In this document: in pieces, positions 8,580-20,254 of the stretch
How positions within the stretch are numbered: the first letter of the stretch is position 1
Layout: every line of letters starts with the position of its first letter
Source: Spirochaetia bacterium
GTDB lineage: Bacteria > Spirochaetota > Leptospiria > Leptospirales > Leptonemataceae
DNA length: 64,000 bases
Direction: 5' to 3'
NCBI GenBank assembly: GCA_009885105.1
Contig: VFLI01000011.1
Location: forward strand, 1-64,000
Position numbers and translations under genes: made by a program
Notes under the pieces: generated by a model
Databases searched by the model: none
Told to the model about the DNA's origin: nothing
The model's input: only the letters and a program-made list of their open reading frames with translations

Positions 8580-9152
8580 ATGGCCCTGATTAAAATACTA
8601 AGAAAGCACAGCATCAAACTCAGTTTTGCGATTCTACTTGTCGGCGGCACAGCGTACATCTTTGGAACGGACCCAAAGTATACAGGCTATTCGCCGGATC
8701 AACCGATTCCTTTCAGCCATAAGATACATGCCGGTGAACTGCAGATGGACTGCCAGTTCTGCCATGTGGCCGTAGAAAGATCGGTCAATGCAACAGTGCC
8801 GGATACGGCAACCTGCATGAAATGCCATGAATTCATTGCATCGGACAGCCTGGCTATTCAGTATCTGAGACAGTCGTATTCTCAGGGCATACCTGTTCGC
8901 TGGATCAAGGTGCACGATCTGCCGGATCATGCAAGATTCAGCCACAAGCCCCATGTTGCAAGAGGCCTGGATTGCACTCAATGCCACGGTGATGTAAAGA
9001 ATATGGACAGAGTGGAAGTTTTTTCCGCGTTCAATATGGGCTGGTGCGTGAACTGTCATCGTGATTACACAGCGCGGCTGGCTTTACAGGAAACCGGTCC
9101 GGGACACAATCATACTATTCATCTGTCAGATTGCGGTACATGTCATTATTGA
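8580..9152 (+). CDS. actA: alternative complex III subunit ActA, pentahaem cytochrome c
   Basis: Periplasmic, membrane-anchored multihaem subunit of alternative complex III, the quinol:cytochrome c/HiPIP oxidoreductase that replaces the bc1 complex. The 190-residue protein has an N-terminal hydrophobic anchor (about 12-30). It has five CxxCH haem sites: CQFCH, CMKCH, CTQCH, CVNCH and CGTCH, the last three residues from the C-terminus. FSHKxH segments and other histidines can serve as distal ligands. This is the first gene of an 11-gene collinear cluster. Similar class III-like cytochromes occur in Nrf/Psr-type complexes, but the following actB-F genes settle the identity. Confidence 0.93.
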   Translation: MALIKILRKHSIKLSFAILLVGGTAYIFGTDPKYTGYSPDQPIPFSHKIHAGELQMDCQFCHVAVERSVNATVPDTATCMKCHEFIASDSLAIQYLRQSYSQGIPVRWIKVHDLPDHARFSHKPHVARGLDCTQCHGDVKNMDRVEVFSAFNMGWCVNCHRDYTARLALQETGPGHNHTIHLSDCGTCHY

Positions 9153-9198
9153 TACAGCGCGTCGTAGATTTAAGAACGTAATTAAAGGCTGAGAGCGA

Positions 9199-12100
9199 AT
9201 GAAAAAAGTCGAAACTTCTGATTTGCAGAAATCCAATTCCAATTCCCGCCGCAAATACTGGCAGTCTCTGGAGGAGCGCACTTCTCCGGAAAAACCTGTA
9301 TGGAATTCTCAGGAATTCCCTATGGACAAACACCAGATGGAAGAAGAATCCCAAAAGCTGTCCCTGAACAGAAAAGATTTCCTGAAATTTATGGGAGCAG
9401 GCGCCGTGATGGTGAACGCTGCCTGCCGGAGACCGACAGAGCAAATCATACCAGCGGTCATTCAGCCCCCGGAAATTGTTCCCGGCGTTCCGGTTTTCTA
9501 TTCAACTACGGCTCCCGATGGAACCGGTCTGATTGTGCGGACAAGAGAAGGCAGACCAATCAAAATCGCCGGCAATCCCGATCATCCTCTTACACGGGGC
9601 GGAGTTTCGGCATGGAATGTTGCCTCACTTATGGATCTTTACGATCCAGACAGGCTGCGAAAAGCGGCAAAAATAAAAGACGGCAGGAAAATCCGCTATC
9701 CAGAAGCTGGAATCATAGCTGAGTCCCAGGCAAAAATAAAAAAAGGAAAATATGCAATTCTGTCCGGTCCTATCGACAGCCCTGCGAGCCGAGCGCTTTT
9801 TACGGCTTTCCTGGAAAAGAATCCAGGCGGGAAGCTTGTTGAAATCAGACAGGATCCAACTCTGCGCCAGATAGCAGAAGGCCAGAAAGCCTCGTACGGA
9901 ACCAGTCTCATTCCATACTACAGATTCGACCGCGCTGATTATATCGTTTCAATTGACGGCGATTTTCTTGGAACAATGATCGCGCCATCAGTTTTCACGG
10001 CTGCCTATTCAGCACAGCGCGAGCTTCGCGCAGGCGGCCTAAAAATGAACCGTCTCGTTATGTTCGAATCGATGTATAGCGTCACCGGATCCAATGCGGA
10101 CAACAGAATTCCAATCAAACCGGGAGACCAGGCGGTTGTGGCATTGTGTCTGGCTTCGCATATCGTGCTGGGCATGGGCGAAAGCGCGATGGCCGGCAAC
10201 GGCGCTGTCAAAAAAATCCTGGAAGCTTATGCGCCCCAGAAAGCAGCATCCATACTGGGAGTCAATCCGGGAGATCTTGAAAAAATAGCCAGAGAGCTCT
10301 GGGAAAACCGCGGAAAAAGCCTGGTTGTGGGAGCCTCTCCTCTCTGCGCCACCGGCAGCAATACTGCAGTGCAGGCTGCTCTAAATCTACTCAATTCTAT
10401 TCTGGAAAATGACGGTAAAACTATTGATTATTCACATCCGTTGCTTCTTTCAGCGGGCGTTTCGGATATGGATCTTAAAGAGGTTTTCGAAGAAATTCGA
10501 TCGGGCGCCATAAAAACAGTAATCCTGGCAGGAGCAAATCCGCTGTATCATCTGCCTTCACAGCTCAATGCAGGTGAAGCGCTGAAGAAAGCGGAGCATA
10601 TTCTATCGCTCAATGACAGAATTGATGAATCGTCGCTGCTTGCGCATGCGATTCTGCCTTCCAGTCATTTTCTGGAAAGCTGGGGCGATTCGGAACTGAT
10701 AAAAGGCATTCTTTCGATTCGGCAGCCCGTAATACGACCTCTGTACGAAACAGCAGGTATTGAAGACCGGCTGATACAGCTTTCCGGCGGCGAAATCAAC
10801 GGGCACAAAACATTCCACGATTTTATGAAAAACCGCTGGTCAGCGTATTCCGGAGGGGAATTCAGAACCTTCTGGCAGTCAGCCCTTCAGGGCGGATACT
10901 TTGCGCCGGGACGCGGAGCGCTGTCCGGCGCAGCGGCAGGAAGAAACTTCAATACGAGCAGTCTGGATGCGCTGCCGGCATCCCCCGCAGCCGTGAGTGT
11001 TGCATCGGATGAAGCTGTCCTCGGTCTCTATTACAACAATCAGGTTCTGGATGGAAGCGGCGCGAACAATGCCTATCGCCAGGAACTTCCGGATCCCGTG
11101 ACCAAATGCGTCTGGCAGAATTACATTTCAATTTCGCCTTCGCGCGCGCGAGAGCTGAAATTCAAACAGGGCACCGTGGTAGAGGTGAAGCATCAGAACA
11201 AAACGATCGCTCTGCCTGTGCATCTGCAGCCAGGACTCCATCCACAGGCGGTGCTCATCGCGCTTGGTTACGGAAGAAAATCCGCGGGGATTGTAGCGGA
11301 CGGCGTGGGCGTAAACGCACTGGACCTGGTGGCCTCCGGATCCGACTCTTTTGTGTTCTCTTCAGCCAAAGTAAAACTTACATCTACGGGCGATCGCGTG
11401 GATCTCCCCAATACTCAGACAATTTATCGCACAGGCTACAATACGGAAGACCGGGCATTTTTTGCAATCGGCAGCATGCCGGATGCCCCTTTGAGCGGCT
11501 CAAGCCAGCTGGAAGGCAGACCCATCATCCGGGAACAGACTCTGGAAGAATTCATCAAAAAGCCCGGCGAGCTCAAACCCGAAGGAATCGAGTATTCCGA
11601 CAAAGTGGCAATAATGCCGACCTGGCAATACAAAGATCTGCGCTGGCACATGGTCATCGACCTGAATCAGTGCACCGGATGCGGCGCCTGCGTGACAAGC
11701 TGCAATACGGAAAATAATATTCCATCCGTCGGTCCGGATGAAGTCAACAGAGGGCGAGAAATGCACTGGCTGCGGATCGACCGATATTTCTCCGGCGGGG
11801 AAGACCGGCCGGAAGTATCACATCAGCCGATGCTCTGCCAGCAGTGCGAGAATGCTCCGTGTGAAAATGTCTGTCCGGTTGCCGCCACAACACACAACAG
11901 CGAGGGTCTCAATGTCATGACCTACAATCGCTGCGTTGGAACCCGCTACTGCGCCAACAACTGTCCTTACAAAGTGCGCCGTTTCAACTGGTTTGAGAAC
12001 TGGTATTATATGGAAGGATTTGACCGCAAGATCCGCGATCCGCAGCATCTGGCGCTGAATCCCGATGTGAATGTCCGGGTGCGGGGAGTCATGGAAAAAT

Positions 12101-12360
12101 GCACGTTCTGCATTCACAGAATCGCATCCGCCCGGCAGGAAATGAAAGCCCGCGGCGATGTCCGCATGCGCGATGGAAGCATTATCACAGCCTGCCAGGA
12201 GGTCTGTCCTTCTCAGGCAATATCATTCGGCGATATCAACGATCCAGAAAGCCGGGTTTCAAAACTGGCAAAATCTGACAAACGGGCTTACAAGGTCCTG
12301 GATTTTCTGGGAGTCAAACCGTCGGTAACGTATCTGGCAAAAATCCGAAATAAGGCATGA
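9199..12360 (+). CDS. actB: alternative complex III subunit ActB, molybdopterin-type/ferredoxin fusion
   Basis: Large periplasmic iron-sulfur subunit that relays electrons from the membrane quinol site to the cytochromes. It has 1053 residues. A Tat-like signal lies at 57-75 (NRKDFLKFMGAGA), with Arg-Lys in place of the usual Arg-Arg and a cysteine at 76 that could be lipidated. A molybdopterin-oxidoreductase-like domain (about 80-790) has no obvious cofactor-site cysteine cluster, as known for ActB. A PsrB/HybA-type ferredoxin domain (about 815-1010) carries four cysteine groups: CTGCGACVTSC, CQQCENAPCENVC, CVGTRYCANNC and CTFCIH...CQEVC. This fits three [4Fe-4S] and one [3Fe-4S] cluster in family members. 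actC follows 3 bases after the stop. Confidence 0.93.
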   Translation: MKKVETSDLQKSNSNSRRKYWQSLEERTSPEKPVWNSQEFPMDKHQMEEESQKLSLNRKDFLKFMGAGAVMVNAACRRPTEQIIPAVIQPPEIVPGVPVFYSTTAPDGTGLIVRTREGRPIKIAGNPDHPLTRGGVSAWNVASLMDLYDPDRLRKAAKIKDGRKIRYPEAGIIAESQAKIKKGKYAILSGPIDSPASRALFTAFLEKNPGGKLVEIRQDPTLRQIAEGQKASYGTSLIPYYRFDRADYIVSIDGDFLGTMIAPSVFTAAYSAQRELRAGGLKMNRLVMFESMYSVTGSNADNRIPIKPGDQAVVALCLASHIVLGMGESAMAGNGAVKKILEAYAPQKAASILGVNPGDLEKIARELWENRGKSLVVGASPLCATGSNTAVQAALNLLNSILENDGKTIDYSHPLLLSAGVSDMDLKEVFEEIRSGAIKTVILAGANPLYHLPSQLNAGEALKKAEHILSLNDRIDESSLLAHAILPSSHFLESWGDSELIKGILSIRQPVIRPLYETAGIEDRLIQLSGGEINGHKTFHDFMKNRWSAYSGGEFRTFWQSALQGGYFAPGRGALSGAAAGRNFNTSSLDALPASPAAVSVASDEAVLGLYYNNQVLDGSGANNAYRQELPDPVTKCVWQNYISISPSRARELKFKQGTVVEVKHQNKTIALPVHLQPGLHPQAVLIALGYGRKSAGIVADGVGVNALDLVASGSDSFVFSSAKVKLTSTGDRVDLPNTQTIYRTGYNTEDRAFFAIGSMPDAPLSGSSQLEGRPIIREQTLEEFIKKPGELKPEGIEYSDKVAIMPTWQYKDLRWHMVIDLNQCTGCGACVTSCNTENNIPSVGPDEVNRGREMHWLRIDRYFSGGEDRPEVSHQPMLCQQCENAPCENVCPVAATTHNSEGLNVMTYNRCVGTRYCANNCPYKVRRFNWFENWYYMEGFDRKIRDPQHLALNPDVNVRVRGVMEKCTFCIHRIASARQEMKARGDVRMRDGSIITACQEVCPSQAISFGDINDPESRVSKLAKSDKRAYKVLDFLGVKPSVTYLAKIRNKA

Positions 12361-12363
12361 AAT

Positions 12364-13761
12364 ATGGCAAATCCTGTATCTGAAAAAGAGTATCTCAGCC
12401 CCACTCTGGTCACGGGGAATAAAAACTACAGCGCCGTAACAAGCGATATAGCGCGGCCGGTTGAATCGTTTCCCACCAAAATCTGGTGGGCTTCGTTCTC
12501 TGTTGCCCTTTCTCTCTGCATCATGTTTTTCGGCGAGATCGGCTATCTGATTGCGAAGGGGATGGGAATTCTCGGCATCAATGTGCCGGTCAGCTGGGGA
12601 TCGTTTATCATTAATTTCGTTTTCTGGATCGGTATCGGTCATGCGGGAACTCTGATATCAGCAATCCTGTACATCTTCCGCCAGCAGTGGAGAACCGGCA
12701 TCAATCGCTCCGCGGAGGCCATGACGATATTTGCCGTCTGCTGCGCCGGCGTATTTCCTGTGATCCATGTCGGAAGAATCTGGCTGGTTCTGATCTGGTT
12801 TCTTCCGCTTCCCAATGAGAGAGGAACACTCTGGCCGAATTTCAGATCGCCCCTGCTCTGGGATCTTTTCGCAATTTCAACATACCTCACAATTTCTCTG
12901 GTCTTCTGGTATATGGGACTCGTTCCCGATTTTGCCTCGATTCGAGACCGCGTAAAAGAATCCACAGCCTGGCAGAAAGTCAGAAAAACTGCCTACTCCG
13001 TTCTTTCTCTGGGCTGGGTGGGAAGCGCGCGGTCCTGGGCGCACTATGAATCCATGGCAATGATACTCGCCGGGCTTTCCGCTCCGCTGGTTCTCTCCGT
13101 GCACACAATCGTTTCTTTCGACTTCGCAACGTCGGTAATTCCCGGCTGGCACACGACGATCTTTCCTCCGTACTTTGTTGCGGGAGCTATTTTCTCCGGC
13201 TTTGGAATGGTTCTGACACTTGTGATTATCATGCGCGAAGTTTTCAATTTCAAGGATTATATCACAACCAAGCATCTGGACAACATGGCGAAGGTTACCA
13301 TGCTGACCGGTTCGATTGTTGGTCTGGCCTACGCAACTGAATTCTTCATCGCCTGGTACAGCGGCAATCCATTCGAAGGCTTCACCTTCATCAACCGGGC
13401 TTTCGGACCTTACTGGTGGGCCTACTGGACGATGGTGTCCTGTAACGTAATTTCGCCTCAGCTTTTCTGGTTCAAAAAAATCCGGACGAATCCTGTCGCT
13501 CTCTGGATCATTTCTATTTTTGTAAATATTGGTATGTGGTTCGAACGGTATGTGATCGTGGTGACTTCCCTGCACCGGGACTACCTGCCCTCAAGCTGGG
13601 GGATTTATATTATGACCCATCATGATTTCTTGATTCTTCTGGGATCGTTCGGATTATTTTTCACGCTCTTTCTATTGTTCTGCCGTTTCTTCCCGGCCAT
13701 CGCCATCGCGGAAACAAAGACGGTCGTAAAATCTCCGGATGCCAGAGGCTACGGACACTGA
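12364..13761 (+). CDS. actC: alternative complex III subunit ActC, NrfD-like quinol-binding membrane protein
   Basis: Polytopic inner-membrane subunit of the NrfD/PsrC family that carries the quinol-oxidising site of alternative complex III. The 465 residues include about ten hydrophobic segments beginning near residue 38. Recognisable segments are [47 protein letters not shown], and the TM-end segment HRDYLPSSW. The conserved His and Asp/Glu positions of ActC appear present in these stretches. The gene lies between actB (3-base gap) and actD (14-base gap). Confidence 0.92.
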
Positions 13762-13775
13762 TACAGGAAAAAAAA

Positions 13776-14459
13776 ATGAGCAATGATAAGAAATTTATAG
13801 ATTCTTTCGCTGAAAAACTCGACTCAATGCTTTCCGGTCCCGGGCAGGCCTGGAACAGATTCGCCGATCGTTTTTTTCAGTACACATACCGGGAAACAAC
13901 AAAGGGAGTATTTGGTCTTTTCGACTCGCCTGAAAAAATTTCCGGCGCCGCTAAAAAAGCCCATGAAAAGGGTTACACGAATTTTGACTGTTTTACGCCC
14001 TTCCCGGTGCACGGCCTGGAACTCGATATGGGATTCAAGAGATCCAAGGTCCCGTACATCACGTTCTTTATGGGCCTGACCGGGCTTGCGATAGCCTTCA
14101 TTCTGCAGTCGATGGTGCACGAGCAGGTAATACCGAGATGGTGGGAATTCTTCGATCCGTATCCAAATCTTCGCTCCTATCCGCTCAATATCGGAGGAAA
14201 ACCAACATTCAGCTGGCCGGCAATGATTCCCATCTGTTTTGAACTGACCGTGCTGATCGGCGGACATTCCACAGTGATTGGATTGATTTTACTGGCCCGG
14301 CTCTATCGTCCTTTCCGCAAAGTGCTGCATCCGGATTTGACAAACGACAAATTCGGCCTGTGGATACCATCGGATTCGGCGCAGTATTCGGAAGAAAGTG
14401 TAAAGCAGTTTCTCACAGAACTGGGCGCGAAGGAAATAACGACTGTTTCGAATACATGA
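13776..14459 (+). CDS. actD: alternative complex III subunit ActD (DUF3341)
   Basis: A 227-residue membrane protein of the DUF3341/ActD family, a structural subunit of alternative complex III. It has a soluble N-terminal region containing GLFDSPEKISGAAKKAHEKG and FTPFPVHGLE, then two membrane helices (about 90-110 and 150-172) connected by PYPNLRSYPLNIGGKP. The C-terminal tail is cytoplasmic. These features match ActD from Rhodothermus-type operons as I know the family. An AGGA ribosome-binding site precedes ATG 13776. Confidence 0.9.
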   Translation: MSNDKKFIDSFAEKLDSMLSGPGQAWNRFADRFFQYTYRETTKGVFGLFDSPEKISGAAKKAHEKGYTNFDCFTPFPVHGLELDMGFKRSKVPYITFFMGLTGLAIAFILQSMVHEQVIPRWWEFFDPYPNLRSYPLNIGGKPTFSWPAMIPICFELTVLIGGHSTVIGLILLARLYRPFRKVLHPDLTNDKFGLWIPSDSAQYSEESVKQFLTELGAKEITTVSNT

Positions 14460-14493
14460 GAAATTATAAACTTTCAATAGATATACATTAATC

Positions 14494-14514
14494 AATATAG
14501 AATATAGAATATAG
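14494..14514 (+). repeat. three tandem AATATAG heptamers
   Basis: Three exact head-to-tail copies of AATATAG at 14494, 14501 and 14508 lie in the AT-rich gap between actD and actE, just before a possible upstream actE start at 14524. Copy number could vary by slippage. There is no sign of function beyond spacing. Confidence 0.7.
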
Positions 14515-14577
14515 AGAATCAGTATGAAATTAATTAATAAAGTCTTCGTCAGTAATCATGCCCTGTTTCCGGAATTG

Positions 14578-14665
14578 GCCACGAAAGGACACGAAAAAAC
14601 ACTAAAAAAGATGTTCCGTTTACAGGTTTTTAAATCTTTCGTGCCCTTTCGTGTAATTTCGTGGC
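14578..14665. repeat. CACGAA-type inverted repeat inside the 5' end of actE
   Basis: Left arm 14578-14606 is built of 10-base units starting CACGAAAGGA, CACGAAAAAA and CACTAAAAAA. Right arm 14637-14665 is its inverted counterpart, with GTGCCCTTTCGTGTAATTTCGTGGC at its end. The arms pair at about 23 of 29 positions around a 30-base loop. The element resembles the CACGAA dispersed intergenic repeats I know from many unrelated environmental genomes (from memory). No second copy is seen in this window. Its right arm is read through in the actE frame, and the left arm lies at or just upstream of the preferred start. Confidence 0.75.
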
Positions 14666-15261
14666 TTAGCACATTTGTAGTATTGGCGATGACATTTTCC
14701 TGCAATTACAGGGGAAATCTATCCGGTATACACTGGTTCCTGGACATGCACGACAATCTTGCCGTGGAAGCTCAGGAAGAAGATCCTCTCACTCTGGATC
14801 TTGCAAAGCCGACCGGATGGTGGAAAAGTTCCGGAACCGTTGTTTCCTGGGGCGGTCCCGGTTCGTCGATACGCATTCCTCCGGAAGGATCCGTGCCTCG
14901 CAATTTTGAACCGTATCCGTACGAAGAAAGTGAATCCGATCTTGCCGGGGAAGAGCTGGCGAATCCCCTTCCCCGAACCAGGAACATTCTGGAACGGGGT
15001 CAGAAAGAATTCAATATTTACTGCTCCGTCTGCCACGGAAGACTTGCGGACGGACACGGAAGCGTGGCCGCGCGTTTTCCAACACGTCCGCCCAATCTGG
15101 TCGCGGGGCCGGCCCGAGATTTCAAAGACGGTAAGATATTCCATCTGATAACAATAGGCCGGGCTTCCATGAAGCCGTTCGCAGCTCAAATCCAGCCGGC
15201 AGACCGATGGGCCATCGTGCATTATCTGCGGGCCCTCCAGGCGAATACTGCAAACCAATAA
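14611..15261 (+). CDS. actE: alternative complex III subunit ActE, monohaem cytochrome c lipoprotein
   Basis: Monohaem cytochrome c subunit of alternative complex III and likely electron exit site. The haem motif is CSVCH near residue 134, in NIYCSVCHGRLADGHG. A later Met (in RASMKPFA) is a plausible axial ligand. The frame is open from ATG 14524, but ATG 14611 is preferred because it begins a lipoprotein-like signal peptide: basic residues, a hydrophobic core VVLAM, then TFSC. That choice gives 216 residues. The start region lies inside a CACGAA inverted repeat, so residues of the signal peptide n-region and early core are encoded by repeat DNA. An insertion that replaced the original 5' end is the simplest explanation. 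Confidence 0.88.
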   Translation: MFRLQVFKSFVPFRVISWLSTFVVLAMTFSCNYRGNLSGIHWFLDMHDNLAVEAQEEDPLTLDLAKPTGWWKSSGTVVSWGGPGSSIRIPPEGSVPRNFEPYPYEESESDLAGEELANPLPRTRNILERGQKEFNIYCSVCHGRLADGHGSVAARFPTRPPNLVAGPARDFKDGKIFHLITIGRASMKPFAAQIQPADRWAIVHYLRALQANTANQ

Positions 15262-15281
15262 AATAGATAACGAGAAAAAAA

Positions 15282-16493
15282 ATGGTTAAAACTGATCCAT
15301 CCGCATTACAATTCAAAATTCCCAGGAAGCTGCTTGTTATCTGTCTGACACTGATCGGTGTTGGAATTGCGCTCATAGCCGCGCAGATTGTTTTTCCCTG
15401 GCATGCGCACGGCGCCGCCGAACACGCCGGGAATCCCAGATTGTTTAAATCGCTGCTCCTGGGACTTCTGATCGCCGTTCCTCTAGGATTGTGCGGATTG
15501 TTTTTTACGGCAGTGAACCACGTTTCCGGAGCCTTCTGGAGCGTAACGCTTCGCCGTCTTGCGGAGAGCTATTTCTGGTTTCTTCCGGTTGTGGCGCTGC
15601 TGATGATTGCGGTGTTTTTCGGGCTGGGCGATAATTATAAATGGGTTCATGAAAGCGACCAGCTTCTCGAATGGAAAAAACCCTGGTTGAATCCCTCGTT
15701 TTTTATCGGCAGGAATCTGGCCTGGCTTGTCATCTGGGGATTTTTTGGATTTATGTTCTGGCGAATTTCGACGCGCCAGGACGAAGATGGAAATGTTTCC
15801 CGAACAAAACTTCTGGCAAAACTGTCGGCCGGTTTTCTCGTTATTTTCGGGCTATCGTATTCAGCCAGCTCCTGGGACCTGAGCATGAGTCTGGAACCGC
15901 ACTGGTTTTCAACAATGTGGGCCGTGTACATTTTCGCCGGAATGGCGCTTACCATGTACGCCTCGTTCATTCTCTGGATCTGGTATCTCAAATCGAAAGG
16001 ATTTTACGGCGAGACGCTGAATGAAAACCACTTTCATGACGTGGGAAAATTCATGTTTGGACATACCATTTTCTGGACCTATATCGGCTTCAGCCAGTAC
16101 ATGCTGATATGGTACGCGCATATACCAGAAGAGACATCATTTTTCAAAACCAGAACAGACGGCGAATGGGCCGTAGTCAGTTTCCTGCTTCCGGTCATAC
16201 GTTTTGCAATACCGTTTTTTATGCTGATCAAAAGAGAAGTGAAGAGAAATATAAATTACATGGCGGTGGTGGCATCGATTGTAATATTCGGGCAGATATT
16301 TGATATGTACTGGGTGACCTACCCGACTCTGAATCACGATGGAAGCTTTGTGCTCTTCTGGTGGCAGGAACTCGGACCGCTTTTCCTGGTTGCGGGAAGT
16401 TATGTGCTGATCGTGGCAAAAGCGCTGAGCATGAAGTCGCTCATACCGGCAAAGGATCCCCGGCTGGAAGAGTGCCTGCACTGGCATCAATGA
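15282..16493 (+). CDS. actF: alternative complex III subunit ActF, membrane protein
   Basis: Second large membrane subunit of alternative complex III, a distant ActC/NrfD relative of about 400 residues (403 here). About ten hydrophobic segments run from residue 17 to near 390. Recognisable stretches are FFTAVNHVSGAFWSVTLRR, SYSASSWDLSMSLEPHWFST, and FGHTIFWTYIGFSQYMLIWYA with its His and aromatic residues. The last segment (RFAIPFFMLI) is also typical of the family. It follows actE after 20 bases and precedes the cytochrome gene by 22 bases. Confidence 0.9.
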   Translation: MVKTDPSALQFKIPRKLLVICLTLIGVGIALIAAQIVFPWHAHGAAEHAGNPRLFKSLLLGLLIAVPLGLCGLFFTAVNHVSGAFWSVTLRRLAESYFWFLPVVALLMIAVFFGLGDNYKWVHESDQLLEWKKPWLNPSFFIGRNLAWLVIWGFFGFMFWRISTRQDEDGNVSRTKLLAKLSAGFLVIFGLSYSASSWDLSMSLEPHWFSTMWAVYIFAGMALTMYASFILWIWYLKSKGFYGETLNENHFHDVGKFMFGHTIFWTYIGFSQYMLIWYAHIPEETSFFKTRTDGEWAVVSFLLPVIRFAIPFFMLIKREVKRNINYMAVVASIVIFGQIFDMYWVTYPTLNHDGSFVLFWWQELGPLFLVAGSYVLIVAKALSMKSLIPAKDPRLEECLHWHQ

Positions 16494-16515
16494 CGCGAGG
16501 AATCGGAACAGCAAT

Positions 16516-17514
16516 ATGAAAGAAATAAAGAATACAAGAAACGAATTGAACTACACAATGCGCATTGCGGCCTTCGTGAACATACTTCTTATCACTGTTT
16601 TATCCGTGATGATGTCCGCTTGCAGCGGCGGCAAGGAGCCTCCGGTTTACACCGTCACCGCGGAAAGAATGTATGAAGGTTCCCTTTACTATGCTTCATC
16701 GGACTGCGCGAAATGCCACGGTGTCAAGTGGGACGGTGACGGCCCCGATGCGACTCGGTTGAAGAAAATCGGATTGACGCCCACCAATTTTACCAGAGCC
16801 AATCCCGACAGGTCCCCCGCCGACTATTTCCAGGCGATAACCGGTCCGGCAGTCTTTTTTCAATCCCATCCAGCCGCGAAATCTGAAGAAGGCGGAAAGG
16901 AACTCTCCCGGATGGCAGTTTCGCATGCGTATCTTGCCTACACAGACCGTGCCCGATGGGCCGTGGCAAATTATCTTTTCTCCCTGAACGGTCCGGTCGC
17001 GGAGAAGGATCAGGAAAAGCATGATACTTCTCTGGAGCGCGGAGCGCGAGATACTGAGCGGGCCTATGCTTCGGGACGGAACTGGGAAGTCGGCTACACG
17101 CGCGATACAACCGCCTCGCCGGATCTGAACACCCTGATTCCCAAAGCCGGTATTGTAGAGGAAGAATCGCTCGGTCAGGTATCTGATGAAAGACGAATTG
17201 TATCTTTGGAGTTCGGCCGGGGAGCGGATCTTTACAGGAATAACTGCGCGCAGTGTCACGGCAATTACGGCCAGGGCGGTGTGTCCTCGATTCGATTCGG
17301 TCTGATTCCGGAGGCCAAATCTTCAGCCATACTGAACAGACAGCGCGCCGTACACCTAACTGCCGTCGATTTTGCCCAATCCCCGGCGCTTGGTTCAGTC
17401 AATGCTTTCAAGGATGGACATACCAACGGAGGCGTTTCGTCCGCGTATCAAAATTTCGCCGATGAAGACTGGCAGGAACTATATGTTTTCGTAAAACGAC
17501 TGGCAGGAAAATAA
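16516..17514 (+). CDS. dihaem cytochrome c lipoprotein in act operon
   Basis: A 332-residue protein with two cytochrome c domains: CAKCH near residue 67 and CAQCH near residue 245. A lipoprotein signal ends at MMSAC (about residue 36). A second in-frame ATG at 16558 would give a tighter signal peptide and is a credible alternative start. Both haem domains have the CHG...DGxG style of class I cytochromes. Its position between actF and the CcoN homologue suggests that it shuttles electrons between complex III and the downstream module. This is inference from order only. I do not recognise it as one of the six canonical Act subunits. Confidence 0.85.
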   Translation: MKEIKNTRNELNYTMRIAAFVNILLITVLSVMMSACSGGKEPPVYTVTAERMYEGSLYYASSDCAKCHGVKWDGDGPDATRLKKIGLTPTNFTRANPDRSPADYFQAITGPAVFFQSHPAAKSEEGGKELSRMAVSHAYLAYTDRARWAVANYLFSLNGPVAEKDQEKHDTSLERGARDTERAYASGRNWEVGYTRDTTASPDLNTLIPKAGIVEEESLGQVSDERRIVSLEFGRGADLYRNNCAQCHGNYGQGGVSSIRFGLIPEAKSSAILNRQRAVHLTAVDFAQSPALGSVNAFKDGHTNGGVSSAYQNFADEDWQELYVFVKRLAGK

Positions 17515-17518
17515 TTTC

Positions 17519-18991
17519 ATGAATCCAAAAGAAAAATTCAATAAAGTTATTAAATACTCCATACTTTTTGGCATTGGATGGACCGTGATTGCGCTTCTTT
17601 TCGGAGTTATCAATCGCGTCCAGCTCATATTGTTTTTTCCATCCTCGGATACAATTCTGGGATACGGAATTCTGAGACCTGTATTCACAACCGCTCTGAT
17701 TTTTGGCGCCGTGCTTTCCCTTTTTACAGGCATTGCCTATCACAGTCTGCAGAGAAAACTTGAATTGAAACTGGAATTAGCCGCGCGAATCGGAATGTAC
17801 GTGCAGCAGCTGGCTGTGCTGCTCTCTATTATAAGCATTGTTGCCGGCTACAACGAGGGACGAGAATACGGTGAGGCAGGCTGGATTCCCGACTGTCTTA
17901 CCGCGCTTTCAATTTTTATTTTCCTGGTTGTTGTTCTCGTTTCACTCAAAGGCGCAGAATCGCCGAGCCGCGGTCAGATATTCATAGTTCTCTCCGCTGC
18001 AGGCGCTCTGCTGGTTTTTGAATTCGGCAATGCCGGTATGCCTTACGATATTTTTTCATCTGTTCCCTATACGGCGGGGCTGCAGGACGCGTCCGTTCAG
18101 GAATTTTACCGGTCCGGTGTGCTGGGATACTTTCTGCTGTTTCCATTATTTGCGATTCTCTACAGCTATGTGCCGGCCTACCATAATATCCAGCTGTACA
18201 GCAGTTCCATGGCCAACTTCCAGGCCTCCGCAATGGCATTGTTGATACCCGTTGCCGGCGCGGCGAATCTGGCCTTCAGTCCTGTTCCGGGCGGTCTTCA
18301 GACATTCGGCATGATATGCGCGCTGGCGCTCGGCGCTGCCCTTCTTGCGGGAGCGATGAATGTAAAATATACATTGAATAACGGTCCCATCGCTGTTGAT
18401 CAGGACGATATTTCAAAGTTTTTTTCCCGCGGCGTTTTCTTCCTGATTCTTTTCACGACTGTTCGCGCCATCGGCTCTTTTCGCTGGGCACAGGAGCGTT
18501 TCGCCTATACCTGGATAAACAGCTCCGATATCAGCCTTGACACGGTCACGTACGGTATGCTGATTCTTTTCGGAAGCGCTTTTATTGCCTCACAGCAGCT
18601 GCAAAACAGAAAGGCATCTGCCGGTCTTGTGAAATCGACCCTGATTTCTCTAACAGCCGGTTCCGCTCTGCTGTTTACTGGAACGGCAATCGCCGGATTT
18701 TTCCAGTCCATCGCGCTGCGCTCAACCGGAGCCGACGGAGCCCTTTCAGTTAAAACCTGGCAGGATACGCTTCTTTCCGGATCTTTCATTTCTTCAAAAG
18801 ATCCGGCCGTTCAGTTCCTTTCGGGCGCAGGAGTTCTCTCGCTGACCGGCATCGCTGTTATTTTTATAGGTATTCTGCTCGGCACACTCACATTGCTTCT
18901 TGTTTTCTTTGCCAATGCTCAGCCCTACGGAGAGCCGGACTTGCACAAAAAAATCCAGGCGCCGATGCATATCAGCCAGGGAGCCCATTGA
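17519..18991 (+). CDS. CcoN-like membrane protein lacking all haem/copper ligands
   Basis: A 490-residue polytopic membrane protein that aligns by eye with CcoN, the catalytic subunit of cbb3 oxidase. Matching stretches include GxLRPxxTxAxIFG, AGYNEGREYGEAGWxxD, AGLQDASVQEFYxxGVLGY and GGLQTFGM. The metal sites are gone: the low-spin haem ligand in RPLHTN is Phe56 (RPVFTT). The CuB histidine of WYGHN is Ser199. The HH pair of GPHHLHY is Ala249-Asn250. The helix X HxH region (about 330-350) contains no His at all. The protein has five histidines in all, in loops or the C-terminal tail. It therefore cannot bind the usual haems or copper or reduce oxygen. The intact 1.47-kb frame, AGGAAA ribosome site and operon position argue against a pseudogene. 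Confidence 0.85.
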   Translation: MNPKEKFNKVIKYSILFGIGWTVIALLFGVINRVQLILFFPSSDTILGYGILRPVFTTALIFGAVLSLFTGIAYHSLQRKLELKLELAARIGMYVQQLAVLLSIISIVAGYNEGREYGEAGWIPDCLTALSIFIFLVVVLVSLKGAESPSRGQIFIVLSAAGALLVFEFGNAGMPYDIFSSVPYTAGLQDASVQEFYRSGVLGYFLLFPLFAILYSYVPAYHNIQLYSSSMANFQASAMALLIPVAGAANLAFSPVPGGLQTFGMICALALGAALLAGAMNVKYTLNNGPIAVDQDDISKFFSRGVFFLILFTTVRAIGSFRWAQERFAYTWINSSDISLDTVTYGMLILFGSAFIASQQLQNRKASAGLVKSTLISLTAGSALLFTGTAIAGFFQSIALRSTGADGALSVKTWQDTLLSGSFISSKDPAVQFLSGAGVLSLTGIAVIFIGILLGTLTLLLVFFANAQPYGEPDLHKKIQAPMHISQGAH

Positions 18992-19674
18992 TGAAATCAC
19001 CAGTTGAATCAGTAACGAATTGGATCGCAGACATACTGGCACGACCTCTGGCCAGCGCGATTGCGGCGGCAGCTGCAGGTCTGGCGGGTTTTTACTTTGC
19101 CGTGTGTTTTCCTTTCACCCCGGATTTTCAGGGAACCGGTCCGCAACTGTCAATAACAGACCCGTCGGTTTTTGCCGGACAGGAAGTATACCATCAGGAA
19201 GGCTGTCAGTACTGTCACAGCCAGAACCTCCGTCCGATTTCCTGGGAAGTGAATCGTTTCGTAAACCTGGAAAAATATGGAAATTTTCCGCTTCCGGAAA
19301 TCGTGGAATATTCACATGAGTCTCCGTCCATGAGAGGTAGTTTTCGAATCGGACCGGATCTATCAAGACTTGCGGGAAAATATACAGAAGAGGAACTTGC
19401 AAGACTGCTGAAGAACGCGGAGAGCGACTCAATGCTCACAGCAAGTCATCAATTCGGATATTTATTTGAACCAGACCAGACTGTATCCGGTCGGGCAATG
19501 TCCTGGAAAATACGGGCGATGATGAATGCAGGCAATGCCTTCTCAGATCCATTCCAGCGAGGTTTCTTTGACCGGCTGGAGAATCGAACCAGAGGGGATT
19601 TACTGGTCCTTTATTTAGCGTCGAGAGGAAAGGTTTCCATGCAGTTTGCCGGAAAATACTACGCTCAGCAATAG
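18991..19674 (+). CDS. CcoO-like monohaem cytochrome c
   Basis: Homologue of the membrane-anchored monohaem subunit of cbb3 oxidase, 227 residues. There is one N-terminal membrane helix (about 20-38). The haem site sits in the CcoO signature GCQYCHSQNLRPI (about 70-82), followed by GPDLSRLAGKY as in CcoO, and a Met-containing segment (GRAMSW) that may supply the axial ligand. ATG 18991 overlaps the stop of the CcoN-like gene by one base (TGATG) with AGGGAG upstream, showing tight coupling. Unlike its partner, this subunit keeps its cofactor site. In normal cbb3 enzymes it passes electrons to CcoN; here the acceptor is unclear. Confidence 0.87.
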   Translation: MKSPVESVTNWIADILARPLASAIAAAAAGLAGFYFAVCFPFTPDFQGTGPQLSITDPSVFAGQEVYHQEGCQYCHSQNLRPISWEVNRFVNLEKYGNFPLPEIVEYSHESPSMRGSFRIGPDLSRLAGKYTEEELARLLKNAESDSMLTASHQFGYLFEPDQTVSGRAMSWKIRAMMNAGNAFSDPFQRGFFDRLENRTRGDLLVLYLASRGKVSMQFAGKYYAQQ

Positions 19675-19732
19675 GATATTGTTCAAAATAGAAAGATTAC
19701 TGTTATACATTAATTGGGAAAAGGAATTGTTT

Positions 19733-20254
19733 ATGTCTTCGAATCATTCGGACAAAGAATCCGCCGGTAAATCGATACCGAACTGGCTGTTATTTTTATT
19801 CTTCGGCGCTGTTGTCTGGGGCGCAGTGTACGGAATCTTCATGCACGGATTTCTTGGATATTCTCAGAGCAGCGCTTATCGAGATTCTACAGGTCAGAGT
19901 TTTGCCGTGGCATTCATCCCGGAAAAACCTGAGCGAAATGCAGCATCCATCGCCAATGGAGAGGCGTCAGCCTCAACCAACTGCGGAGCCTGCCACGGCG
20001 GCCCGGCTCTTACAGGAAGTATCGGTCCAAATCTCACGGATGACACCTGGCTGCATGCCCAGGGTCAGATGACAGAAACAAGATTGGCAGAGCTGATCAT
20101 GAAAGGCATACTGCCGGCCGATGCTAAAACAGAGAAAGGAAAGCAGGGCGGCATGCCTCCCAGGGGAACGCTTGGCAGCGACCGTCAGGTATGGGAAGTG
20201 ATCTATTACCTTTCTTCAAAAAACAGAAGTATCCGCCAGGACGCAACTCCCTGA
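19733..20254 (+). CDS. CcoP-like monohaem cytochrome c
   Basis: A 173-residue protein related to CcoP of cbb3 oxidase. It has a short cytoplasmic N-terminus, one membrane helix (SIPNWLLFLFFGAVVWGAVYG region, about 13-35), and a single C-terminal cytochrome domain. That domain has CGACHG followed by GPNLTDDTWLHAQG and a GGMPPRG Met-ligand segment. Canonical CcoP is about 300 residues with two haems; this one has only one. The longer open frame from 19646 is rejected because ATG 19733 has an AAGGAA ribosome site 7 bases upstream. It completes a CcoN-O-P-like triplet. Confidence 0.85.
   Translation: MSSNHSDKESAGKSIPNWLLFLFFGAVVWGAVYGIFMHGFLGYSQSSAYRDSTGQSFAVAFIPEKPERNAASIANGEASASTNCGACHGGPALTGSIGPNLTDDTWLHAQGQMTETRLAELIMKGILPADAKTEKGKQGGMPPRGTLGSDRQVWEVIYYLSSKNRSIRQDATP

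Follow-up and report, generated by a model that had tools for sequence, protein, structure and literature searches.

A CcoN homologue without haem or copper ligands in the alternative complex III operon of a spirochaete family

What is a CcoN homologue kept for when none of the histidines that bind haem and copper remains in it? This question is raised by a gene at positions 17519 to 18991, on the + strand, of the window, by which we mean the whole stretch of 64,000 nucleotides that was analysed (contig G000:C109 of a 3.6 Mb assembly of 115 contigs, 78% complete). The gene starts with ATG and encodes, without internal stops, a product of 490 amino acids, which we call dead CcoN here. The original prediction, made from the sequence alone, described a CcoN homologue without any haem or copper ligand and with the cross-linking tyrosine apparently replaced, considered decay unlikely, and proposed a scaffold or electron-wire partner of alternative complex III (ACIII).

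Homology to CcoN, the ligand places and the operon

The similarity of the product to CcoN is far beyond chance, and it is a true CcoN homologue. It matches the COX1 family of Pfam (PF00115) with an E value of 8e-22 and 78.1 bits (cut-off 34.8), and phmmer aligned residues 9-412 with 3mk7_A at an E value of 8e-20. Five distinct cbb3 sequences in the PDB are matched, with E values from 3e-21 to 2e-15. When the AlphaFold model (pLDDT 85, pTM 0.89) was compared with the PDB by Foldseek, the top seven matches were cbb3 subunit-I chains with TM scores of 0.81-0.87. Based on Pfam, phmmer and Foldseek, the protein meets the CcoN test of a homologous twelve-helix COX1 fold. The match to the TIGR00780 ccoN model, at 95.9 bits, is far under the equivalog cut-off of 583, so the equivalog test is not met.

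The ligand positions, which we take to be those of the P. stutzeri CcoN numbering, were read from alignments that included CcoN with all six histidines. The bis-histidine ligation of low-spin haem b is not met, as His60 is replaced by Phe56 and His349 by Ser339. The same holds for the haem b3 histidine, His347, which is Asp337 (both helix X histidines are lost in this way), and for the CuB histidines, where His207 is Ser199 and the pair His257/His258 is Ala249/Asn250. The cross-linking Tyr251 of helix VII has become Ile243, and a tyrosine is found at this place in 0/19 rows of the family. Every substitution that the original prediction had named was correct, including the loss of the tyrosine, and the structure prediction and profile search that it had proposed as checks both matched CcoN. 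We excluded ligand histidines at shifted positions, because the protein has only five histidines: His476, His484 and His490 are in the C-terminal tail, and His75 and His222 lie near helix ends in the AlphaFold model. None is mid-helix or placed for haem ligation within the bilayer. An assembly or sequencing error as the source of the ligand loss was also rejected, as 20 genomes agree. At the level of sequence and predicted fold it is shown that dead CcoN holds neither haem b nor copper and is incapable of reducing oxygen.

Dead CcoN is gene 8 of a ten-gene operon on the + strand, from 8580 to 20254, with the following genes.

8580..9152, + strand: ActA, pentahaem cytochrome c of ACIII (Cytochrome c7 in Pfam, QrcA-like in NCBIfam; five CXXCH)
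9199..12360, + strand: ActB, fused molybdopterin-like and iron-sulphur subunit of ACIII (Fer4 in Pfam; QrcB/QrcC-like NCBIfam matches below cut-offs)
12364..13761, + strand: ActC, NrfD-like quinol-oxidising membrane subunit (NrfD in Pfam, 76 bits; 72-82% identity to ActC of ten family relatives)
13776..14459, + strand: ActD (PF11821 ActD, 180 bits)
14524..15261, + strand: ActE, monohaem cytochrome c (Cytochrome_CBB3 in Pfam; one CXXCH)
15282..16493, + strand: ActF, second NrfD-like membrane subunit (from operon order and 50-61% identity to its positional counterparts in relatives; no Pfam match)
16516..17514, + strand: dihaem cytochrome c, specific to the operon of family f1 (Cytochrom_C in Pfam; two CXXCH; same place in relatives)
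17519..18991, + strand: cofactor-free CcoN homologue (F56, S199, A249-N250, D337 and S339 at the ligand places; I243 at the tyrosine place)
18988..19674 (probable ATG 18991), + strand: CcoO-like monohaem cytochrome c (PF02433 FixO, 63 bits; one CXXCH)
19646..20254 (probable ATG 19733), + strand: CcoP-like cytochrome c with a FixP_N anchor and one haem site (Cytochrome_CBB3, 41 bits; one CXXCH)

The ActA-ActF gene set together with the ActD family match meets the test for ACIII, and dead CcoN also meets the CcoN test of being encoded with CcoO and CcoP. The CcoP-like product carries one CXXCH and not two, which corrects the original prediction, as do the probable starts of CcoO and CcoP; its FixP_N match, at 22.9 bits, is just under the cut-off. 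Some relatives' copies of the dihaem cytochrome gene have only one CXXCH. The start of dead CcoN lies five bases past the stop of the dihaem gene, and its own stop overlaps the probable CcoO start at 18991 (TGATG). This suggests that translation is coupled. The operon itself is shown, and co-transcription of dead CcoN with CcoO and CcoP is inferred. In KatS3mg129, actE is apparently split into two frames (L087:12014-12686 and L055:5536-5901).

Orthologues, selection and conserved residues

An orthologue of dead CcoN is present in 20 of the 22 genomes of the spirochaete family f1 (Leptospiraceae-like). G009 and G019 gave no match; in both, the contig stops within actF. These orthologues show the same losses: no ligand histidine was found in any of the 20 at any readable place, the His60 place being readable in 19 of them because one copy is cut before it. 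The order ActABCDEF, dihaem cytochrome, dead CcoN, CcoO, CcoP is constant in f1 wherever the contig reaches, and the haem motifs of CcoO and CcoP are kept in every f1 copy examined. Leptospiraceae bacterium KatS3mg129 (L087) carries the same operon. In other families of the class, ACIII is present without the module in 13/13 loci that have sequence behind actF, and two more loci end inside actF. In a sample of 392 genomes of the phylum, all dead-type matches were in f1 and none outside it (two fragments in G244 were not scored for ligands). A search for related loci with the dead CcoN protein alone gave 20 pattern matches and no relative. ActC was used as query for the second scan of named genomes, because the dead CcoN alignment has no sufficiently conserved stretch, and the best 80 of at least 584 relatives were kept. 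In the metagenome-assembled Leptospiraceae genome Go_SlAct_bin_98 (L088, 3726-11325), which has ACIII, blastp gave no match to an operon-type CcoN, CcoO or CcoP behind ActF.

The gene is under purifying selection. For five close pairs, dN/dS of dead CcoN is 0.028-0.059, and the same pairs gave 0.034-0.098 for CcoO and 0.022-0.042 for CcoP (one pair undefined). Three wider pairs gave 0.10, 0.18 and 0.33 for dead CcoN; the last two values are from two pairs in genus g3, in which the rate of dead CcoN exceeds those of CcoO and CcoP. As dS exceeds 1, and is thus saturated, in most pairs, these ratios are rough, but all eight are well below 1. The pseudogene test (a broken frame or relaxed selection) is not met, with 20 open frames and dN/dS of 0.03-0.33 in eight pairs. 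The claim that decay is unlikely therefore held, supported by the intact frame, purifying selection and the fixed place in the ACIII operon.

What is conserved is unevenly spread. An alignment of 13 intact CcoN rows has 164 conserved positions, and the dead f1 family keeps the same residue at 19. Shared residues were counted at 12/32 in helix II, 9/36 in helix VI, 7/31 in helix VIII and 4/13 in loop 3-4, with none in helices IX and X and one in XII, so that helices IX-XII are the least conserved. In loop 3-4, the motif GREYGE of the dead family occupies the place of KEYAE in CcoN, and its last glutamate (Glu125 of P. stutzeri) is kept in 19/19 f1 rows and in 48/54 dead copies of the second family described below. 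The periplasmic loop 3-4 region is near the haem propionates and CcoO; that the conserved patch faces CcoO is a structural inference made without coordinates. The former ligand places of low-spin haem b vary across f1, with F, G, Y, A, S and others at His60 and S, Y, A, F, G and others at His349. The new aspartate (D337) at the haem b3 histidine place is present in 15/19 rows. Thr215, Ser240, Tyr251 and Tyr223 are residues that we take to belong to the K-channel. Equivalents of the first three are found in 0/19 f1 rows and are mostly gone in the dead copies of the second family, and at the Tyr223 place a tyrosine is kept in 17/19 f1 rows. Compared with CcoN of cbb3, dead CcoN has the same twelve-helix fold (TM 0.81-0.87), a COX1 match above the cut-off and ccoO and ccoP downstream, but it has no ligand histidine, no cross-linking tyrosine and few of the K-channel residues. 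At the start of helix X there is an N-x-x-D motif (residues 334-339, window region 18525-18535), with Asn or Asp at 334 in 19/19 rows and Asp337 in 15/19.

A parallel case and the other oxidases

A second family of such genes was found behind ACIII, in genomes that we take to be Verrucomicrobiota, an assignment inferred from three loci only. In one of these (L089, from a metagenome-assembled Akkermansia muciniphila genome) the gene behind ACIII is also a ligand-poor CcoN; in the two others (L133 and L146, Verrucomicrobia) the CcoN behind ACIII is intact. Among the 78 genomes nearest that of L089, a relative is present in 69. We scored 61 copies and found no ligand histidine in 36, one in 17, two in 3 and all six in 5. 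One of the three two-histidine copies (L209) really has three, His207 and the HH pair, which was split by the alignment. Hence 56/61 copies are dead, with at most three ligand histidines, and 5/61 are intact. Some rows among the 61 are partial: L270 is a fragment of 186 residues with two readable places, L264 has 410 residues and L268 lacks helix X in the alignment. Eight further dead copies (L180, L181, L185, L196, L197, L198, L200 and L201) were scored separately, outside the 61; L182 (G464) is absent from the ligand counts, and the gene of L190 was counted as L215. The model of a dead protein of this side has a pLDDT of 91 and TM scores of 0.84-0.90 to CcoN. The order ActABCDEF-CcoN-CcoO-CcoP is seen in nearly every sufficiently long locus of the second family. 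As the dihaem cytochrome gene is absent from these operons, the electron path proposed below would differ there. The existence of this parallel case is shown, and it strengthens the link with ACIII that had been proposed. In one of these operons (L210), extra small cytochrome c genes with CFTCH motifs lie between an ActG-like gene and the dead CcoN.

Are the two families the result of one loss or of two? We built a CcoN tree of 63 rows, from which the ligand and tyrosine columns had been removed and which included 26 of the 56 dead Verrucomicrobiota-side copies. In it, the dead copies of f1 group together in one clade (100/100), and the dead Verrucomicrobiota-side copies form their own (100/99), beside intact relatives, so that at least two changes are needed. 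Constraining all dead copies to a single clade costs 61 log units (p-AU 0.016). The group used in the AU test was named after the tree had been seen, branches are long, and the bootstrap of the careful tree is unsettled. In a CcoO tree with 24 dead Verrucomicrobiota-side copies, the two operon types are apart and the operon CcoO forms its own clade. Within the Verrucomicrobiota side, intact and dead copies are mixed in this tree, with weak support, a pattern at odds with only one loss there. The trees point to separate losses in f1 and in the Verrucomicrobiota-type genomes; this is supported and not proven.

The loss of the ligands goes together with the absence of a maturation gene. A CcoS-like short frame lies upstream of 5/5 intact copies of the second family and of 0/55 dead copies with enough upstream sequence. 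This motif was shaped after the fifth intact copy was known and then used on all rows alike; a narrower one gave 4/5 intact and 0/57 dead rows. When compared with FixS, three of the four CcoS-like proteins tested matched, with E values of about 0.001-0.002, all under the cut-off. This co-loss is shown. FixS is found in 17 of the 22 f1 genomes: in 14 it shares a contig with an intact CcoN and lies no more than about 5 kb from it, and in 3 it is on contigs without one. None was found in the dead CcoN operon of f1, so dead CcoN does not meet the test of a CcoS or FixS gene nearby, and none was found in the window's own genome, which is 78% complete.

We rejected the possibility that dead CcoN is the only oxidase gene of its genome, as other COX1 genes are present. 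In all 20 f1 genomes with a dead copy a further match to PF00115 scores 373 bits or more, although the ligands of these other copies were read only in some genomes (e.g., G000, G002, G004 and G005). On the Verrucomicrobiota side, where 31 genomes were searched, another COX1 match is present in 29/29 genomes with a dead copy (in G409 only as a fragment at a contig end), and G430 has a single COX1 match, which is its intact copy. All checked genomes with a dead copy thus have another oxidase gene, and the active site has been given up where it is dispensable. The canonical CcoN of the window's genome (L002/L228, G000:C87:4494-5783, - strand) keeps the six histidines and has a phenylalanine at the cross-linking tyrosine column. 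The same genome has a second odd COX1 relative (L005, G000:C75:8645-9811, - strand) of 481 residues; by eye it has the low-spin histidine (VVHVNLS), the GGGHVL histidine and PAHYHAA, and the HH pair is absent. Adjoining it is a NOR-like COX1 of 592 residues with ASAHHLL (L003, G000:C75:6224-7543, - strand).

Proposed role, rival explanations and known systems

On balance, we lean towards the reading that the oxidase half of an ACIII-cbb3 module has been hollowed out, with dead CcoN kept as a membrane anchor for CcoO and CcoP, whose haems would lead electrons out of ACIII. Dead CcoN most likely adjoins ACIII, at the place that the oxidase takes in an ACIII-oxidase supercomplex, where it would hold CcoO and CcoP against the ACIII cytochromes. 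Electrons would flow from menaquinol via ActC/ActB to ActA, then to ActE and/or the dihaem cytochrome, and on to CcoO and CcoP. From CcoP they would pass to a soluble carrier or to a true oxidase encoded elsewhere, and the module would be an electron outlet and not an oxygen site. Its putative origin is a cbb3 module in the ACIII operon whose active site would have been lost, at least twice, once another oxidase made it dispensable; the CcoO and CcoP cytochromes, touching ACIII, would have stayed as the outlet while the oxidase half was emptied. The anchor role, the wire, the direction of electron flow and membership of the complex are all inferred. The scaffold or electron-wire role that had been proposed is supported to this extent, and presence in the complex is not shown.

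Other explanations can be considered. Dead CcoN might be an assembly or regulatory partner of a true cbb3 oxidase, sheltering CcoO and CcoP or competing with live CcoN and so tuning the oxidase level. The adjoining CcoO- and CcoP-like genes and the separate intact CcoN that is usual in f1 genomes would fit this. However, the dead gene is fixed in the ACIII operon and not in a cbb3 operon, the live CcoN on G000:C87 has its own CcoO and CcoP while the operon CcoO forms its own clade, and in G010 (91% complete) a dead copy and a COX1 of A-type size were found with no other CcoN match. We consider this explanation unlikely. We are equally doubtful about a redox-free ion channel or transducer, in which conformational changes of ACIII would move protons or Na+, or about a quinone site. 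The twelve-helix fold is kept, D337 is present in 15/19 rows with Asn/Asp334 near it, and the tyrosine at the Tyr223 place is kept in 17/19; but the other K-channel residues (Thr215, Ser240 and Tyr251 equivalents) are gone, the conserved aspartate is not common to the second family, so that no shared ion path is seen, and helices IX-XII are the least conserved.

A cryptic cytochrome b that holds haem through unusual ligands such as Asp, Tyr or Met is still harder to accept. The conserved Asp337 at a former ligand place speaks for it, but neither axial partner of the low-spin haem remains, the residues at these two places being dissimilar within the family, and there is no CcoS-like gene in the operon. 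That the gene is a pseudogene, decaying as a passenger of the operon, can be virtually ruled out: the complete loss of the catalytic residues speaks for it, but the frame is intact in 20 genomes, dN/dS is 0.03-0.33 and the same pattern occurs in a second group.

The anchor-and-outlet reading can be set beside known systems. ACIII clusters frequently precede oxygen reductase genes, and there are supercomplexes in which ACIII cytochromes feed the oxidase directly (PMC5928083). As in the ACIII-caa3 and ACIII-aa3 supercomplexes of Rhodothermus and Flavobacterium, ActABCDEF is followed directly by an oxidase-type module, but here the module is cbb3-like, its active site is lost and a dihaem cytochrome is added. 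In the verrucomicrobial methanotroph Methylacidiphilum, ACIII genes are co-located with cbb3 genes that are taken as functional (PMC6688271). The arrangement is the same, and a working oxidase is presumed there; in the related family studied here, 5/61 copies are intact. In Verruconatronum, an ACIII cluster is immediately followed by three genes that are annotated as a caa3 oxidase (PMC13274419); judged by number and location alone, they could be of the operon type of this study. The oxidase of F. johnsoniae does not require ActE, and split electron paths were discussed in that work with a comparison to a gonococcal CcoP haem (PMC8552683). The third haem of gonococcal CcoP, a branch out of cbb3 to nitrite reductase, resembles our case in that a CcoP-type haem is an electron outlet. 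There, CcoN is active, whereas here the outlet would be all that remains. We found no description of a ligand-free CcoN in the open-licence PubMed Central papers searched. PMC5492636 mentions an "unknown group" among the haem-copper oxidases, which it attributes to Muntyan et al. 2015, and it is possible that such proteins were already noticed there.

A bolder reading, which in our view could as easily prove wrong as right, is that ACIII has, on repeated occasions, taken in a cbb3 oxidase that was hollowed out afterwards, and that a cofactor-free core without its maturation gene is a structural subunit bearing the outgoing c-haem chain. If so, such complexes would be standard in one spirochaete family and frequent in Verrucomicrobiota, where the emptied core would be mistaken for an oxygen reductase. 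PF00115 and cbb3 labels score the dead proteins above cut-off, so some genes labelled as oxidases may not be oxidases and aerobic respiration may be wrongly credited. The purpose of ACIII-oxidase supercomplexes also becomes testable, by asking what stays once the oxygen chemistry is removed. Here the core of a haem-copper oxidase has turned into a cofactor-free subunit that is kept by selection, and intact relatives at the same operon place allow a comparison of before and after. One genome of the Verrucomicrobiota side has both an intact and a dead ACIII-type CcoN (L216 and L231, on G434:C548 and G434:C174, respectively), which offers a natural side-by-side comparison.
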